Source of the DNA: Paenibacillus borealis
GTDB lineage: Bacteria > Bacillota > Bacilli > Paenibacillales > Paenibacillaceae
Length of the DNA: 64,000 bases
Reading direction: 5' to 3'
Assembly (NCBI RefSeq): GCF_000758665.1
Contig: NZ_CP009285.1
Coordinates: 5,146,001-5,210,000 of the forward strand
The notes below the pieces were generated by a model that did not search any database, was not told where the DNA came from, and worked only from the letters and a program-made list of their open reading frames with translations. The translations under genes and the position numbers were made by a program. Within the stretch, counting starts at the first letter, position 1. Each line of letters begins with the position of its first letter. Positions 22,240-61,288 of the stretch are shown one piece after another.

Positions 22240-22503
22240 TTGTAAATAAACAAGCATCACTCTCGCTTTATATACTTTCTTGAATTCATACTGCGGTTCA
22301 CAATGAAATCCAGCAGACAAAGACTGACACCCCGCTCCTCCAGTTCCGAAATTCACCACCATTTTCCCTGTCAGTACAAGTTGCCGGATAATCACAGTTG
22401 AGCTGGAAGAATACGTAAATTTCAACCTTAACACTTAATTACTTATCGGCTGACTTGAGACTTCTTGGAGTCAGGAAGCACTGTAGACGTGTAGACGTAA
22501 ATG

Positions 22504-22672
22504 TTGTACGTATTGCAACTTTGATTCCTGAATAGCCGGGTGTTCGGGAGGATTGTTGTATGAAATACAACAATCCTCCCGCTAAGCCGCTTGAATCAGG
22601 AGAAATCCTGCATTTTAACAACAATGTTGGATTTGGGCCGGTATATGGAGGGGAATGTTGTATTATGTACAG
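22504..22672. repeat. Periodic palindrome array 2, with a perfect 17-bp hairpin
   Basis: Clear sites at 22504-22518 (TTGTACGTATTGCAA), 22556-22570 (TTGTATGAAATACAA) and 22658-22672 (TTGTATTATGTACAG); centres 52 and 102 bp apart. At the intermediate 51-bp phase (about 22608-22621) a copy with one base deleted is present (CTGCATTTTAACAA). The second site is the core of a perfect inverted repeat from 22545 to 22581 (17-bp arms, GAA loop). No gene is supported in this region. Confidence 0.7.
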
Positions 22673-22793
22673 GATTTTAGAAATATCCAGCTAGGAAAGG
22701 CCGCTAGGAGAAGCTATCAGCCCCCTGCCGCGGAAAACGGATAAACCGGGAAAATCCCGCAACTATAGCCGCCGCCCGGAAGTGCAATTTAGA

Positions 22794-22930
22794 CGTCATT
22801 GCGGTGAACATTTGGACTTCCGGCCGCAGCTCGCCCCCAGATTTCTTGATTATTGCCGCTGTTCGCTGTGGAAATCCGGTGACAAAGGTGAGGGCTATCG
22901 CTTCTACAGTTCCAAGTTCCCCCTCCGCTT
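22794..22930 (+). repeat. Dispersed inverted-repeat element, degenerate copy A
   Basis: Contains the left arm (TTGCGGTGAACATTTGGACT, then TCCGGCCGC), the internal CAGATTTCTTGATT, a weak apical hairpin (CCGC/GTGG), AAATCCGGTGACAAAGG and the right arm ending CCCCCTCCG. The outermost GTAAC/GTTAC ends are not conserved. It fills much of the 870-bp gap between yhbD and the secreted glycan-active gene. Confidence 0.65.
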
Positions 22931-22982
22931 CTTTCGCTTTTTGTTATTTTTTTCGTGCGTCTTATATAGTTTCTACATCATC

Positions 22983-43724: not shown

Positions 43725-46166
43725 CTATTTAACAGCAGGGTACAGGCTTATGATTTCATCCTTCTTCTCGACAGCAACCAGCTGCTTGCCGATGGAACGG
43801 CGCTCACCAAGCGGTGCCGCTTCGGAGGAGAAGGTGTGAACCGCGCCGCTCTGGGTAATGGCGGTCAGCTCCAGTGGTTCCTTGCAGTAGAATGCCCCTG
43901 CAAGCCTGCTGCCGTTCGGGCGAACCCGCTTGCCTTCTTTGAACTCGAATGTCGGCATGCCTTTGCCTCCGCGGCTCTGTGAAGGATAATCTACAAGCAG
44001 CGAACGTTTGGCATAGCCAATCTCGGTAACCGCGAGAATCTCCCCTTCATCCTCACCCACCCAGAAGCTGGCGACCACCTCATCACCTTCACGCAGTTGA
44101 ATCCCTCTTACCCCTGTAGCCACACGGCCCATAGGATTGACTTCACTCTCACGGAAACGGATGCTCATCCCTTCGCGGGTCACAAGCACGATGTCCTTGT
44201 CTCCGCTGCTCAGAGCCACTGTAATGATCTCATCGCCTTCCGCTACCTTACAGGCGGCAACAGCTCCGGAACGGCTTGTAGAGTACTCCTTGAGCTCTGT
44301 ACGCTTCACCTGCCCCTTACGGGTGACGAAGACCAGACTTGCCAGCGGGTCCTCCAGGTTGCCGACCGGCAGCACACTGACAATTCCATCGCCCTTGGCA
44401 AGGCCGATCACGTTCACGATCGCCGTACCGGGCTCCTTCCATTTGAACTCCGGTATCTGATGAACCGGAAGCAGGAAGTATTGACCCTTGCGGGTGAACA
44501 CCAGCAGGCTGTCCCGGGTATTCAGATCCAGCAGCTTAACGATATGGTCGCCTTCCTTAACGCCCGAGGAGTGACGCTCCCCGCCTGAGCGGGTGAAGGA
44601 CGGCATGCCGGTCCGTTTGATATAGCCGTCAGCTGAAAGGGCAACCAGAACATCCTCGGCATTGACGAGAACTTCCATGCTGACCTTCAGTTCCTCAACC
44701 TCACCCTGAATGAGTGAGCGGCGGTCGATCCCGTATTTATCACGGATCTCCAGCAGCTCTTTGCGGATGACCGCAACCAGCTTCTTGTCGCTGTCCAGAA
44801 TGCCCTGCAGGACAGCAATCTTGGCATGCATCTCATCAAGCTCCTTCTGGAGCGAATGAATCTCCAGATTGGTTAAACGGTACAGCTGCAGGGTAAGGAT
44901 GGAATCGGCCTGGCGCTCGCTGAAGCCGAACATCCATACCAGATTATTCTGGGCATCCTGGCGGTTCTTCGACGCTTTGATCGCGGCGATCACTTCATCC
45001 AGAATGTTCAGTGCCTTAACCAGTCCTTCCAGGACATGGGCCCGGTCCTCTGCCCGCTCCAGATCAAACTGGGTGCGGTGGGTGACCACTTCACGCTGAT
45101 GGGCGATATACGCTTCAAGGATTGCCTTCAGGCCGAGCTGCTGCGGAGCCTTGTTGACGATCGCCACCATGTTGAAGTTGTAGGTAATCTGCAGATCGGT
45201 TTTTTTGAGCAAATAGGCCAGAATGCCGTTAGCATCTGCTTCCTTCTTCAGCTCGACCACAATCCGCAGTCCTTCACGACCGCTCTCGTCGCGGACTTCG
45301 GCAATGCCTTCGATCTTCTTCTCAAGGCGGATATTCTCCATGGAGGTTACGAGCCGCGACTTCACTATCTGAAAAGGCACCTCGGTAATGACGATCTGCT
45401 GCTTGCCGCCGCGCAGGTTCTCAATCTCGGTCTTTGAGCGCAGGTAGATACGGCCTTTGCCATTACGGTACGCGTCCATAATGCCGTCGCCGCCCATAAT
45501 TGTTCCGCCTGTAGGGAAGTCAGGACCTTTGATGAAGGTCATGATGTCCTCCAGCGCGATGTCCGGCTTCTGCATGACAGCAATACAGGCATCGATGACT
45601 TCACGCAGGTTATGCGGCGGAATTTCCGTAGCGAACCCGGCTGAGATCCCGCTTGTCCCGTTAACAAGCAGATTCGGATAGCGGGAGGGAACCACGACCG
45701 GCTCCTTCGCCGTATTATCGAAATTGTCCTTGAAAAGTACGGTGCGTTTCTCAATATCACGCATCATCTCCAAAGCGATCGGAGACAAGCGCGCTTCTGT
45801 ATAACGCATAGCTGCTGCAGGGTCATCATCCATCGAACCCCAGTTGCCGTGTCCGTCGACAAGCACATGCCCCATCTTCCAGGGCTGGGCCATCCGCACC
45901 ATCCCGTCGTAGATCGAGGAATCTCCGTGGGGATGGTAGTTACCCATTACGTCGCCGACCGTTTTGGCCGACTTGCGGTATGGCTTGTCCGGCGTATTGC
46001 CCGAGTCGTACATCGCGTACAGAATCCGGCGCTGCACGGGCTTCAGCCCGTCACGGACGTCCGGAATCGCCCGGTCCTGAATGATATATTTGGAATACCG
46101 GCCAAATCGGTCACCCACGACCTCTTCCAGAAATGCCGGCAAAAACTGCTCTGATAAACTGCTCAT
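43725..46166 (-). CDS. parC: DNA topoisomerase IV subunit A
   Basis: 813 residues. Type IIA topoisomerase A subunit: [17 protein letters not shown], quinolone-region helix [17 protein letters not shown] (78-94), and the catalytic tyrosine in RYTEARL near 122. The C-terminal beta-pinwheel ([27 protein letters not shown]) lacks a canonical GyrA box (QRRGGKG), and the size and the parE gene upstream point to ParC rather than GyrA. It decatenates chromosomes with ParE. It is separated from parE by 608 bp of repeated non-coding sequence, which is unusual. Confidence 0.93.
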
Positions 46167-46300: not shown

Positions 46301-46646
46301 CGTAACTGCGGTGAACGCTTGGACTCCCGGCCGCTGTTATAGTTAGATTTCTAATTCATACGCTTAAAATAGATTGAACTAAACATGATTCCAATGGGAT
46401 GTTGTTCATAACTGCGGTGGATATTTGGACTTTCGGCCGCTGTTGTCTCCAGATTTCTTGATTATGACAGCTTATAGCTGTGGCAATCCGGAGACAAAGG
46501 CGGACGCTGGCGCTCCTACAGCTCCAAAATCCCCCTCCGTTATTCTCATCTGTTATTCTCTTATTCAGTTCAAGTTATAGCGGATGAAATCTAAATATCA
46601 AAGTGGACGCTGGCGCTCCTGCAGTTCCAAACTCCCACTCCGTTAC
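46301..46646 (+). repeat. Dispersed inverted-repeat element, outer copy split by a nested element
   Basis: Left arm at 46301 (GTAACTGCGGTGAACGC, then CCGGCCGCTGTTATAG), right arm ending GTTAC at 46646 (GTGGACGCTGGCGCTCCTGC, then CTCCGTTAC). The arms pair through sequence different from other copies: ATAG-TTAGATTT (46339-46350) with AAATCTAA-TAT (46587-46598), and TTGAACT with AGTTCAA further in. A full second element (46408-46543) lies in its apex, as if inserted there. Together they fill most of the parE-parC gap. Confidence 0.7.
46408..46543 (+). repeat. Dispersed inverted-repeat element, inner copy B
   Basis: A complete 136-bp copy. Ends ATAAC and GTTAT (other copies: GTAAC and GTTAC, so the terminal pair changed together). 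Stem TTGTCTCC with GGAGACAA; apical hairpin ACAGCT-TAT-AGCTGT, where copy D has ACCGC/GCGGT. Left arm GGATATTTGGACTTTCGGCC, right arm CTCCAAAATCCCCCTCCG. Confidence 0.75.
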
Positions 46647-46774: not shown

Positions 46775-48757
46775 TTACTCCACTATTTCTGTAAAGTCGA
46801 CGTTCTCGACAATCCAGCGCTTGCGCGGATCAACCTTGTCGCCCATCAGTGTGGAGACGCGGCGTTCCGCCTTGGCGGCATCCTCGATCTGCACCTGCAG
46901 CAGCGTGCGGGAATCCGGATTCATCGTTGTTTCCCACAGCTGATCCGGGTTCATCTCACCGAGTCCCTTATAACGCTGCAGCTCGAAATTCTTGCCGAAT
47001 TCCTTCAGGTAATTCTGCAGCTCCTCATCGCTCCAGGCATAGCGGACGGTTTCCAGCTTGCCCGATTTGCGCGTCAGCTTATACAGCGGCGGCTGGGCAA
47101 TGAAGACCTTGCCGGCATCGATCAGAGGCTTCATATAGCGATAGAAGAAGGTCAGCAGCAGCACCTGAATATGCGCACCATCCGTATCGGCATCGGTCAT
47201 AATGATAATCTTGGAATAATTGCTGTCTTCCACGGCGAAATCAGGCCCGATTCCCGCGCCGATTGCCGAAATAATCGCCTTATATTCATCGTTCTTCAGG
47301 ATATCCAGCAGCTTGGCCTTCTCCGGATTCATCGGCTTACCCTTCAGCGGAAGAATGGCCTGAATCTTGGAATCACGTCCCTGCTTGGCCGAACCTCCGG
47401 CGGAATCACCTTCTACGATGAAGATTTCGGTACGCGTAACATCCTTGGACTGAGCAGGCGACAGCTTGCCGCCAAGATTAGAGCTCTCGCTGCGTTTCTT
47501 GCCGCTGCGGATTTCATCGCGGGCTTTGCGCGCCGCTTCACGGGCCTTGGAGGCCTGGATGGATTTCTTCAGCAGGCTCTGCGCGACCTGGGGATTCTCC
47601 TCAAGGAAGCGCGCCATTTTCTCAGAGACAATAAAGTCCACGGCACTGCGGGCCGAAGCACTTCCCAGCTGATCCTTCGTCTGTCCGACAAATTCTACAT
47701 CCGACATCTTCACGCTGATGACCGCCATCATTCCCTCACGGAGATCATTGCCCTCCAGATTCTTATCCTTCTCCTTAAGCAGCTGCGTCCGGCGGGCATA
47801 GTCGTTCAGCACACGGGTATACGCTGTCTTGAAGCCGGTCTCGTGCGTTCCCCCGCTGCGCGTTGGAATGGAGTTAACGAAAGAAGCGATAGTCTCTGTA
47901 TAACCCGCGTTGTACTGCAGCGCGATTTCCACTTCAATCTCGTCCTTCTCGGAGCTGAAATGAATTACATCATGCAGCACATCCTTGCCCTCGTTGAGGA
48001 ACTGTACAAACTGGCTGGCGCCGCCCTCATAAAAGAACTCATCCTGCCGTCCGTTCCGCTCGTCGCTGAGGTTGATCCGCAGGCCCGAGTTCAGGAAGGC
48101 AATCTCCTGCACCCGTTCCGCGAGTGTATCATAACTCAGTGAAATGCCTGCCGGGAAGACGCGAATATCCGGCTTGAAGGTGATCTTCGAACCGGTCTTA
48201 TTCGTATTCCCCAGTACCTCAAGGCCAGTCACAGGCTCGCCGACATGTTCTTTCCCGCTTTTGTCGACCCAATATTCGAAGCGTTGCCGGTGGATCTTGC
48301 CTTCACGGTAAATCTCCACTTCCAGCCATTCGGACAAAGCGTTTGTTACTGATGCGCCTACGCCGTGCAGACCGCCCGATTTCTTGTAGCCGGAGCCTCC
48401 GAATTTACCACCTGCATGCAGAATGGTGAAAACAACCTGCGGAGTCGGCACTCCCGTCTTGTGCATCCCGGTCGGAATTCCCCGGCCGTTGTCAATTACG
48501 GTGACCGATCCGTCCTTGCGGAGTGTAATATCAATCTTCGAGCAAAACTTGGCCAAATGCTCATCTACGGCATTGTCCACTATTTCCCATACCAAATGGT
48601 GCAGTCCCGAGGAACTCGTACTGCCAATATACATGCCGGGCCGTTTGCGGACCGCAACCAGACCTTCGAGCACCTGAATGTCGTCAGCATCGTATCCAGT
48701 CCGGCCGACTTCGGCGTTCTTAGAGACTTTTGCAAACATATCGATCTGTTCGAGCAT
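46775..48757 (-). CDS. parE: DNA topoisomerase IV subunit B
   Basis: 660 residues. GHKL ATPase: EIVDNAVDEH (Asn-Mg site), VIDNGRGIPTGMH, GLHGVGASVTNALS; transducer domain; Toprim EGDSAGGSAKQGRDSKIQAILPLKGK with DADTDGAHI. Lys/Asn-rich basic helix KAREAARKARDEIRSGKKRSESSN and a C-terminal DPRKRWIVENVDFTEI. Absence of the GyrB insertion and the position before parC identify ParE. AAGGAGG precedes ATG 48757. No clear terminator separates it from parC, so the two are probably cotranscribed through the repeat region. Confidence 0.94.
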   Translation of the reverse strand: MLEQIDMFAKVSKNAEVGRTGYDADDIQVLEGLVAVRKRPGMYIGSTSSSGLHHLVWEIVDNAVDEHLAKFCSKIDITLRKDGSVTVIDNGRGIPTGMHKTGVPTPQVVFTILHAGGKFGGSGYKKSGGLHGVGASVTNALSEWLEVEIYREGKIHRQRFEYWVDKSGKEHVGEPVTGLEVLGNTNKTGSKITFKPDIRVFPAGISLSYDTLAERVQEIAFLNSGLRINLSDERNGRQDEFFYEGGASQFVQFLNEGKDVLHDVIHFSSEKDEIEVEIALQYNAGYTETIASFVNSIPTRSGGTHETGFKTAYTRVLNDYARRTQLLKEKDKNLEGNDLREGMMAVISVKMSDVEFVGQTKDQLGSASARSAVDFIVSEKMARFLEENPQVAQSLLKKSIQASKAREAARKARDEIRSGKKRSESSNLGGKLSPAQSKDVTRTEIFIVEGDSAGGSAKQGRDSKIQAILPLKGKPMNPEKAKLLDILKNDEYKAIISAIGAGIGPDFAVEDSNYSKIIIMTDADTDGAHIQVLLLTFFYRYMKPLIDAGKVFIAQPPLYKLTRKSGKLETVRYAWSDEELQNYLKEFGKNFELQRYKGLGEMNPDQLWETTMNPDSRTLLQVQIEDAAKAERRVSTLMGDKVDPRKRWIVENVDFTEIVE

Positions 48758-51785: not shown

Positions 51786-51910
51786 TGCTATCCCTCCGTA
51801 TGCCGTTCTATTCTCCATTGTTCCACATTTTACAAACTTCTTAACTATGTAGATAAACATAATTCTTCTTTGCTTAATTTGCAAATAAAGCGGGGTTTTG
51901 GTGAAAGGCG

Positions 51911-51943
51911 CGGCTGCAGTGATTTTGGACTTCCGGCCGCTGC
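51911..51943 (+). repeat. Dispersed inverted-repeat element, left-arm fragment
   Basis: CTGCAGTGATTTTGGACTTC then CGGCCGC, matching only the first 35 bp of the full element. The rest is missing, so this is a decayed or truncated copy. Confidence 0.5.
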
Positions 51944-53230: not shown

Positions 53231-53328
53231 AGAAGCGGCTTTGCCGTCCTTTAATAAGGACGGTACCGTTTCAGCGAGAAATAGAAGGATAATTTATAGC
53301 GCGAAGCATATAAATTCTTATATTTTAA
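53231..53328 (-). repeat. Second dispersed element family, copy 1
   Basis: About 98 bp, clearly similar to 61191-61288. Contains the hairpin CCGTCCTTTAATAAGGACGG, the conserved CCGTTTCAGCGAGAAA and an AT-rich inverted repeat (ATTTAT...ATAAAT, with GCGCGAAGC in the loop). It lies 3' of the WG-repeat/DUF3298 gene on the minus strand. Confidence 0.7.
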
Positions 53329-55359: not shown

Positions 55360-55675
55360 TCAGTCGCTCTCCCTTACAAAGGCATTTGCCTATAGAATAT
55401 GAGAGTGAGGGGGAAAGGGTGTTTATGTGGCTGGGGCTGCCGAGGTGCTTGAGTATGAGTGTGAGCATGAGCGCGAATGTGTTAAGAACATGGAATGCGT
55501 TATGAGCGTGGAATGCGTTATGAGCGTGGAATGCGTTATGAGCGTGGAATGCGTTATGAGCGTGGAATGCGTTATGAGCGTGGAATGCGTTATGAGCGTG
55601 GAATGCGTTATGAGCGTGGAATGCGTTATGAGCGTGAGGGCATAAATGCGTTTAAAGATTTGGAAAGGTGATGCC
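55360..55675. repeat. Intergenic region with an 18-bp tandem repeat (8 units)
   Basis: GGAATGCGTTATGAGCGT is repeated eight times without change from 55492 to 55635. Both strands are open across it: plus MECVMSV repeats (frame 55427-55645), minus THSTLI repeats. No convincing RBS or family supports a protein on either strand. The array immediately precedes a full dispersed element (55676). Identity of all eight units suggests recent expansion or slippage. Confidence 0.8.
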
Positions 55676-55810
55676 GTAACTGCGGTGAATGTTTGGACTT
55701 CCGGCCGCTGTTGTCTCCAGATTTCTTGATTTAAACCGCTCATCGCGGTAGAAATCCGGAGACAAAGGCGGACGCTCCCGCTCCTCCAGTTCAAACTTCC
55801 CCTCCGTTAC
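55676..55810 (+). repeat. Dispersed inverted-repeat element, full copy D
   Basis: The clearest 135-bp copy. Ends GTAAC (55676) and GTTAC (55810). Left arm TGCGGTGAATGTTTGGACTT, then CCGGCCGCTG; stem TTGTCTCC (55711-55718) with GGAGACAA (55758-55765), extended by GATTTCT/AGAAATC with one A-C mismatch; apical hairpin ACCGC/GCGGT; right arm CAGTTCAAACTTCCCCTCCG. Left and right arms are themselves imperfect complements, so the whole element can fold on itself. Confidence 0.8.
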
Positions 55811-56415: not shown

Positions 56416-56503
56416 GCGCTTCACCCTGTTCAACGATTTATCCTAAGTTAATGCCTAAATTTAAGATTTCTAAATGAGTAACCCGCTCGTTATTATTAAA
56501 ATC

Positions 56504-56673
56504 CTGCACTAAATACAACATTCTCATCATTATACCGTCCCTAATCCACGATTGTTGTATAGAATGCAGCATTTCACCTTCTCCAAGGCGATTTTCAAGA
56601 AAATTCTTGTATTTCGTACAACAATCCGCCCGAACAGCTATATATTTATGCTTCCGAGTTGTACTGTGTACAA
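56504..56673. repeat. Periodic palindrome array 4 (four sites at 51-52 bp)
   Basis: Sites: 56504-56518 (CTGCACTAAATACAA), 56555-56569 (TTGTATAGAATGCAG), 56607-56621 (TTGTATTTCGTACAA), 56659-56673 (TTGTACTGTGTACAA). Centres are 51, 52 and 52 bp apart. Intervals are unrelated to each other except that the first resembles that of array 3. Confidence 0.8.
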
Positions 56674-56778
56674 CAATTTATACAACTGGTTACTTTTGGG
56701 GTTTGCTACACACTTAAGGGTGGAGATATTGGGCATGGTTTTGGAGCAACGTTGCGACAAAATCAACACGCCCAAAGC

Positions 56779-56845: not shown

Positions 56846-56882
56846 GTAACGAAGGTAAAGTTTGGAACTGAAGCAGCGACAG
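56846..56882 (-). repeat. Dispersed inverted-repeat element, right-arm fragment
   Basis: GTAACGAAGGTAAAGTTTGG, then AACTGAAGCAGCGACAG, matches the reversed right arm of the element. It is followed by an unrelated hairpin (CTTGCATT/AATGCAAG, 56896-56919) instead of the usual core. Confidence 0.5.
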
Positions 56883-56954
56883 CACCCGGAGAGTTCTTGC
56901 ATTCAATCGAAATGCAAGATGAACTATGAACTGTTAAGCTGATAAAAAGGGAGA

Positions 56955-57128
56955 GTAACGGAGGGGATTTTGGAACTGTAGGAGCGATAGCGTCCGCCTG
57001 AAAGCTTTCCGTAGGAAAGCTCGCTTCGGAAGCACAGGCTGTCTGCGGATTTCTACCGCGATGAGCGGTTTAAATCAAGAAATCTGCAGACGGGCAGCGG
57101 CCGAAAGTCCAAAACTCACCGCAGTTAC
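56955..57128 (-). repeat. Dispersed inverted-repeat element, full copy E with a 40-bp insert
   Basis: Inverted orientation. Ends GTAAC (56955) and GTTAC (57128). The main stem here is GTCTGC (57041-57046) with GCAGAC (57086-57091), where copies B and D have GTCTCC with GGAGAC: both strands of one base pair changed. Apical hairpin ACCGC/GCGGT as in D. About 38 bp near 57000-57040 is extra and forms two small hairpins (AGCTTTCC/GGAAAGCT and GCTTC/GAAGC). Confidence 0.75.
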
Positions 57129-57182
57129 GGTTTTACCTTTTACCCAAGCCTGGCAGTTCATCTTTCAAGAGCATTGAACGCA

Positions 57183-57208
57183 AAAACTCCGGGTGCACCA
57201 GCACCCGG
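57183..57208 (-). terminator. Terminator of mglC
   Basis: CCGGGTGC and GCACCCGG form an 8-bp perfect stem; the minus strand continues AGTTTTTG, 43 bp after the mglC stop. A fragment of the dispersed element (57205-57232) abuts it. Confidence 0.85.
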
Positions 57209-57232
57209 AAGTCCAAACATTCGCAGTTACGG
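57205..57232 (-). repeat. Dispersed inverted-repeat element, left-arm fragment abutting mglC
   Basis: Reversed left arm: GTAACTGCGAATGTTTGGAC then TTCCGG (minus strand). Only about 28 bp remain, 19 bp after the mglC stop and overlapping the terminator's left arm. Confidence 0.5.
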
Positions 57233-61190: not shown

Positions 61191-61288
61191 AGAAACGACT
61201 ATCCGTCCTTCAAGGGACGGTAACCGTTTCAGCGGGAAAGATAAGGAACCTTTATGGCGTAAGACATATAAAGACTTATCTTTTAAAA
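61191..61288 (-). repeat. Second dispersed element family, copy 2
   Basis: About 98 bp aligned with 53231-53328. Same layout: hairpin CCGTCC-TTCAAG-GGACGG, the shared CCGTTTCAGCGGGAAA, then an AT-rich inverted repeat with different bases (CTTTAT...ATAAAG, plus GATAAG/CTTATC). It lies 13 bp after the stop of the sugar-binding lipoprotein on the minus strand, like copy 1 downstream of its gene. Confidence 0.7.

Follow-up and report, generated by a model that had tools for sequence, protein, structure and literature searches.

A mobile IS630-type MITE with a covarying structured core in Paenibacillus borealis and its relatives

The paired-arm repeats dispersed in the genome of Paenibacillus borealis are not chance matches but the core of a non-coding mobile element, an IS630-type MITE of the Correia/RUP kind. 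The reading that we favour, and consider quite probable, is that of a non-autonomous MITE moved by IS630, with a structured RNA core that is orientation-dependent in host mRNA; the core and the retention of copies within operons constitute its unusual part. The window analysed here is a stretch of 64,000 nt (5146001-5210000 of the single contig of 8,156,808 bases that represents this genome, G000), and five-digit positions refer to it.

Concerning copy number, BLAST with 40 of 81 candidates scored yielded at least 45 matches in G000, of which some belong to one and the same copy. The covariance model built from 30 of these BLAST copies yielded at least 71 (150 of 3273 candidates scored), i.e., 70 copies and one overlapping match on the opposite strand. 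All 150 candidates scored in the relative G028 matched the model, such that at least 150 copies are present there; together with the 70 of G000, these form the set of 220 copies used below. At an E-value of 0.001, matches were found in all 36 same-genus relatives searched (at least 55 in ten of these) and in 5 of 23 genomes from other families of the order. The covariance-model search proposed in the original prediction, which had been made from the window alone, has thus brought to light many further copies in the own genome and in relatives. A plasmid search returned two partial matches, both from Paenibacillus, and a phage search no match to the element. Rfam 15 gave no match at gathering score over the window, and at relaxed thresholds the hits of two copies, for the most part to microRNA models from eukaryotes, stayed far short of the respective gathering scores and are to be regarded as noise. 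At 7509508, 7139919, 2715841, 2523249, 4258139, and 6973469, G000 also harbours a diverged family of cores in which the arms differ (ACAGCGGAGCGGACGG...) and the central region is similar.

The complete element of the window (46365..46579, minus strand; 215 nt including the TA at both ends) is inserted into an older copy at its apical loop. Its terminal repeats, read from the sequence, lie at 46365-46380 (TAAAATAGATTGAACT) and 46567-46579 (AGTTCAAGTTATA), and its structured core, with the minus strand as sense strand, at 46408..46543 (covariance-model match G000:C1:5192408-5192543, 148.4 bits). The older outer copy split by it (46301..46646, minus strand), of which both half-cores are recognised, is situated between two genes on the minus strand, one upstream of the nested pair (46775..48757; PF00204, PF00986, PF01751, PF02518) and one downstream (43725..46166; PF00521, PF03989). 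We infer that these are parE (topoisomerase IV subunit B) rather than gyrB, a name chosen because of the neighbouring gene, and parC (topoisomerase IV subunit A) rather than gyrA. In G028, a copy is likewise present between these two genes (at 5104611). A core without recognisable terminal repeats was found by BLAST and by the covariance model (157.3 bits) at 55676..55810 on the minus strand; it is adjoined by an 18-bp direct-repeat array (GAATGCGTTATGAGCGTG) with eight overlapping 72-nt copies at 55457-55654. The core at 56955..57128 (plus strand; match 5202955-5203128, 98.7 bits) contains, as judged from its sequence, an extra hairpin domain of about 40 nt (57000..57039, plus strand; GAAAGCTTTCCGTAGGAAAGCTCGCTTCGGAAGC...) and splits a second older outer copy (56846..57230, plus strand), the half-cores of which show 3 and 4 mismatches. 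A decayed copy lies at 22794..22930 (minus strand; match 5168795-5168931, 114.5 bits), with a terminal repeat of a second type (TATATAAGACGCACGA) at 22953..22968 on the minus strand, two mismatches away from TATATAAGACGCACTT.

All of these copies and the fragments at 51911, 56846, and 57205, as listed in the original prediction, are present in the sequence, but some had been taken for more, or for less, than they are: the 135-bp copies are only the inner core of a 214-bp element, the terminal repeats of which had not been listed, the fragments at 56846 and 57205 belong together as left and right half of the second, split outer copy, and the fragment at 51911 is merely a 34-nt remnant of one core arm (51910..51943, minus strand; from the sequence), absent among the covariance-model matches of the own genome. 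Two other repeats were seen in the window. A second dispersed element has inverted copies at 22499-22691 and 56485-56678 (GGGAGGATTGTTGTAT... palindrome), and an interior that resembles it by eye is found, with the same IS630 terminal repeats as in the MITE, at genome positions 6540523-6540947 and 8103222-8103551. A 64-nt direct repeat (53265-53328 and 61223-61286, 78% identical; ACCGTTTCAGCG...) is, by eye, unlike the MITE.

Alignment of 30 oriented copies with their flanks placed the outer inverted repeats at TATATAGATTGAACTT on one end and its complement on the other. Within the 220 copies, 78 left and 102 right ends differ from TATATAGATTGAACTT at no more than two of 16 positions, as against one of 440 control flanks, and 65 copies have no end within four mismatches. 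Where both ends are found within three mismatches (100 copies), the length from repeat to repeat peaks at 216 bp and falls into 210-222 or 254-261 bp, except for one copy of 231 bp. Cores exceeding 150 nt through the extra hairpin domain make up 15 of the 70 own and 27 of the 150 G028 copies. The domain is present in the pheS-pheT copy of one relative (L175 in G074) and absent from the orthologous one of another (L176 in G065), the two being 96% identical otherwise; the extra 40-nt hairpin can therefore be acquired or dropped as a whole. Ends similar to TATATAAGACGCACTT are seen in a few own copies (5855854, 3700598, and the decayed copy at 22794 of the window), so that one core is carried by more than one type of end. 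Unrelated interiors between the same terminal repeats also occur in the own genome. A derivative of about 80 bp that arose by internal deletion (L094, G000:C1:2515709-2515790) retains both terminal repeats and one arm and no core, and elements of about 80-90 bp with the ends CTATATAGATTGAACTA and different interiors exist in relatives (L143, L147, L149, and L152).

Mobility is documented by a young copy of G028 (749405, locus L310), the site of which is empty in G034 and, as far as match coordinates alone tell, in G015. The empty junction AAAC-TATA-AACC of G034 corresponds to AAAC-TATATAGAGTGAACTT...AAGTTCACTCTATATATA-AACC in G028, i.e., to an insertion of the 214-bp element plus a duplicated TA at one clean site, and this single empty-site comparison indicates insertion rather than decay. 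Nested copies were found in four cases in all, namely at 46.3 kb and (by eye) at 57.0 kb of the window, at 6105638 in G028, and at pheS-pheT in G063, the latter two likewise within the hairpin tip; judged by eye, they agree with TA duplication. A wider nesting scan revealed no additional case with both halves. The nested insertion and the mobility proposed in the original prediction are supported by these observations, as is its MITE-like reading by the terminal repeats, the TA duplication, and the many short non-coding copies; its retron- or REPIN-like alternative gives way to the IS630-type ends and the TA duplication.

No transposase was seen near the copies, as had been stated before. Other Paenibacillaceae possess full elements of about 1.14 kb, bounded by the same kind of ends and coding for an IS630-family transposase, and the search for a transposase with matching ends, also proposed earlier, has therein found its counterpart. 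Two of these transposases reached 253 and 252 bits with NF033545 (cut-off 100), with PF13358 also present. Out of 47 IS630 loci found in named genomes, 46 could be scored; both ends lie within two mismatches in seven (L359, L360, L363, L364, L365, L385, and L391) and within five in 31, control stretches inside genes never being better than five. The closest loci are those of Paenibacillus puerhi, an uncultured Paenibacillus (OKU20), Fontibacillus phaseoli, P. periandrae, Cohnella fermenti, and Paenibacillus sp. SY21-1, and a second IS630 group has the ends TATATAGAACGCAATTAAG. PF13358 had no match at 1e-5 in the own genome, in which a local mobiliser is therefore absent, lost, or unrecognised; at this threshold, 21 of 41 genus genomes searched were positive. 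The likeness of the ends suggests mobilisation in trans by an IS630-family transposase.

The paired base changes that had drawn attention to the element are real. They were assessed with a branch-event test on 170 distinct cores of the 220 (identical cores, lengths outside 128-142, and five family-2 cores being dropped), with a null in which the inferred substitutions are re-dealt over the columns on each branch of the tree (150 replicates). Compensatory double changes numbered 69, in 21 pairs, compared to a null mean of 3.8 (sd 2.1, maximum 9), and single changes that break a pair numbered 101, compared to 188 expected. In an R-scape-like G-test with a parsimony null, support is weaker, with two column pairs at E < 0.05 and a third at 0.125; inflation of the null by deep subfamily splits is the probable cause, and we relied on the branch-event test. 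Near-invariant mismatches are situated within the stems: G6/A131 and A8/G129 (165-168 of 170 cores) flank the pair of the variable position 130, and C45/A103 and T46/C102 (166-169 of 170) adjoin covarying pairs. Their persistence argues against a correction of imperfect palindromes, which should erase mismatches. Thus, of the selection or template-driven copying invoked in the original prediction, selection on the fold stands, whereas template copying does not stand as the main cause.

Since G6/A131 and A8/G129 would become C/T on the other strand, the fold presumably better suits the reverse complement of the orientation adopted originally, and it is this strand, which runs with the genes, to which the RNA fold would belong. 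Folding end to end, as claimed before, applies on one and the same strand to 55676-55810 (z -6.4) and 46408-46543 (z -3.6), but not to the decayed copy 22794-22930 (z +1.50, no better than shuffles; one strand folded). For the inner element over its full length (46365-46579), z was -5.33 (minus strand) and -3.23 (plus strand), 55676-55810 reached -6.42 and -5.62 on the two strands, and the young G028 copy -7.64 on the one strand folded. A strict GNNA tetraloop was considered and rejected, the first loop base being G in 165 of 170 cores and the fourth mainly A (124) or T (43); a count of this loop by text pattern (81 of 213) seems to mis-register it.

Copies are retained at the same gene pairs in different species. 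For 14 of the 70 own copies, G028 has a copy of the same orientation at the corresponding gene pair, with both neighbours matching, and for one a copy of the opposite orientation. These shared pairs include pheS-pheT, purF-purM, and secA-prfB (NCBIfam names; secA identified by its C-terminal part only, below the full-length cut-off) as well as parE-parC of the window, where the comparison pairs the inner window copy with that of G028 and the outer copy is the likelier orthologue. At seven of the 14 sites, the copies of both genomes lack any terminal repeat within four mismatches; one of the G028 copies (5367643) possesses both and may have been inserted separately. Ten of the 14 sites were aligned, at least one copy carrying the extra domain at each of the other four; 22 pairs changed in a compensatory way, 16 on one side with the pair kept, and 19 with the pair lost or gained.

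Concerning pheS-pheT, among the best-scoring 30 of 61 genus loci, which hence represent close relatives, the element is held in 21 and missing in nine. One of the 21 copies is a remnant (G061), that of G063 has the second element nested within it, and that of G073, having terminal repeats, is perhaps a separate insertion. G078 is without a copy, its remaining letters matching the flanks of carriers, and together with the cut-down copy of G061 this makes the pheS-pheT copy dispensable. Leaving out the nested and the remnant copy, 96 of 171 pairs diverge by 0.4-0.5 at fourfold sites of pheT, and these diverge by 0.21 in the core and by 0.55 in aligned flank columns; in the eight pairs closest at fourfold sites, the values are 0.085 and 0.38, and with 0.38 even among these, the flanks do not provide a clean neutral standard. 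The nearest core is that of another orthologue for 17 of 19 pheS-pheT cores and a copy elsewhere in G000 or G028 for two, with margins over copies elsewhere small enough in many cases to make gene conversion or re-insertion possible.

Orientation relative to the flanking genes, as called by a simple longest-ORF caller, was determined for the 211 loci with a gene on both sides (nine of 220 being without a call on one side, and 12 cores sharing more than 100 nt with a long ORF). Both genes are sense in 120 and antisense in 17, and the pair is convergent in 45 and divergent in 29, such that, among the 137 same-strand gene pairs, sense predominates over antisense (p = 3e-20). The sense strand is also co-oriented with the replication fork in 182 of 220 copies, with the origin placed by dnaA (position 415) in G000 and assumed at the contig start in G028. 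Gene pairs running against the fork split 7:7 between the predictions from gene direction and from replication, so that the orientation data do not separate the two effects. The bias in same-strand pairs is about equal in young G028 copies with both terminal repeats (55 of 63 sense) and in old ones without (16 of 19) and therefore need not be due to gradual selection.

Position and tail differ between the orientations, too. The 17 antisense copies lie a median of 45 nt past the upstream stop and 184 nt ahead of the next start, compared to 99 and 119 nt in the 120 sense copies (p = 0.008 and 0.014). The T content over the 15 nt after the core is 51% on the antisense strand versus 21%, and at least five T within the first 8 nt are found in 99 of 220 copies on the antisense strand and in 12 of 220 on the sense strand. 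Their position close behind stops and this T-rich tail make the antisense copies look terminator-like, which fits a one-way terminator in that orientation. Speaking against this, a simple terminator scan returned no candidate at the 46.3-kb copy; between 55.4 and 57.3 kb, it returned five (1.9 expected), among them one of five pairs on the sense strand of the 55676 core and one of ten pairs on the antisense strand of the outer copy 56846-57230, in its right half.

The reading favoured here combines these observations as follows. An IS630-family transposase would move the MITE in trans, with insertion at TA and duplication of the TA, and the core would be transcribed within host mRNA and fold on the strand running with the neighbouring genes. 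The sense direction would be permissive, allowing copies to survive in leaders and inside operons; in the opposite direction, the T-rich tail would act as an intrinsic terminator, and copies would persist mainly close behind a stop codon. Old copies may keep their fold either as it protects or processes operon mRNA or as an unfolded remnant would harm expression. A further step, which we regard as possible but rather unlikely, is that the core is a domesticated mobile cis-acting RNA module, carried by more than one type of IS630 end and with its fold selected for the control of operon mRNA; it would then control read-through, processing, or stability, e.g., of the mRNAs in which it separates the two subunit genes of topoisomerase IV or those of phenylalanyl-tRNA synthetase.

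Three other explanations have to be weighed against the MITE with an orientation-dependent RNA core. The orientation bias may stem from replication instead of transcription, insertion or survival being set by which arm is on the lagging-strand template. The co-orientation of most copies with the fork speaks for this, as does its persistence at convergent (31 of 45) and divergent pairs (25 of 29); among convergent pairs, however, it is G028 that follows replication (25 of 31), whereas G000 shows no such bias (6 of 14), and the location of antisense copies close behind stops is not predicted by replication. We hold a purely replicative origin of the bias to be doubtful. Somewhat less credible still is a purely selfish MITE, with the hairpin as a by-product or an aid to transposition, the pairs arising from template-switch correction, and persistence being due to chance. 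The young G028 copy has the same fold, elements sit in the hairpin tips of older copies in all four nested cases, and pair-restoring changes occur on many branches, all of which a selfish element could accommodate; it would, however, have been expected to lose the near-invariant mismatches at G6/A131, A8/G129, C45/A103, and T46/C102, and the smaller divergence of pheS-pheT cores than of flank columns and the 14 to 1 agreement in orientation at shared sites also speak against it. An affiliation with REPIN/RAYT, retrons, or bcr1-like elements has hardly any probability left: these, too, are intergenic, palindromic, and present in many copies, and bcr1-bcr3 also occur in UTRs and operon gaps according to the pertinent passages of PMC3446304, but TA duplication and IS630-type ends differ from the TTTAT given as bcr motif in the passages on it in PMC6542083, and the unit of about 215 bp differs in size and anatomy from REPs, put at 20-40 bp in those of PMC3733652.

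The MITE with its structured core offers a tractable system: 220 insertions in both orientations were examined, with at least one empty sister site, and the orthologous compensated copies, recent insertions, and rare antisense copies form a ready comparison set for the question of whether MITE hairpins are passengers or regulatory RNAs. The family is abundant in a large genus and apparently undescribed, no description of the element in Paenibacillus having been found in the literature searched (subscription journals lying mostly outside that search); this and the lack of an Rfam match are why it is filed here as an IS630-type MITE with an unusual core.

TA-ended bacterial MITEs with IS630-like repeats and folding transcripts are already established, as the sections on Correia/NEMIS, RUP, and ERIC in the review PMC2229807 attest. 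According to these sections, Correia/NEMIS of Neisseria is a MITE of 107-155 bp flanked by TA, one size variant of which contains an extra internal block, its transcripts fold and are proposed targets of RNase III, and an IHF site and putative promoters are mentioned. Compared by description, the Paenibacillus element shares the TA-flanked organization and the size variant with an extra block, and Rfam gave no link between the two. ERIC/IRU of enterobacteria, described in the same sections as a palindromic MITE of 127 bp with TA ends that is co-transcribed with its neighbours and affects mRNA in an orientation-dependent way via an RNase E site, is likewise similar by description in its palindrome and TA ends and different in length. 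The bcr1-bcr3 elements of the Bacillus cereus group are MITE-like, with up to 130 copies of bcr1, often in UTRs or operon gaps (relevant passages of PMC3446304 and PMC6542083); their mobility is tied to the TTTAT motif, whereas the present element has IS630 ends and, at the one site compared, a TA duplication. RUP of Streptococcus pneumoniae (107 bp, about 100 copies, ends like those of the resident IS630-Spn1, TA target; PMC2229807) is similar as a small non-coding repeat with a TA target and IS630-like ends, and the review's section on it gives no signature of structure or function beyond the ends. Unlike RUP, the Paenibacillus element possesses a covarying core of 135 nt with near-invariant mismatches, a strong orientation bias, and copies common to different species.
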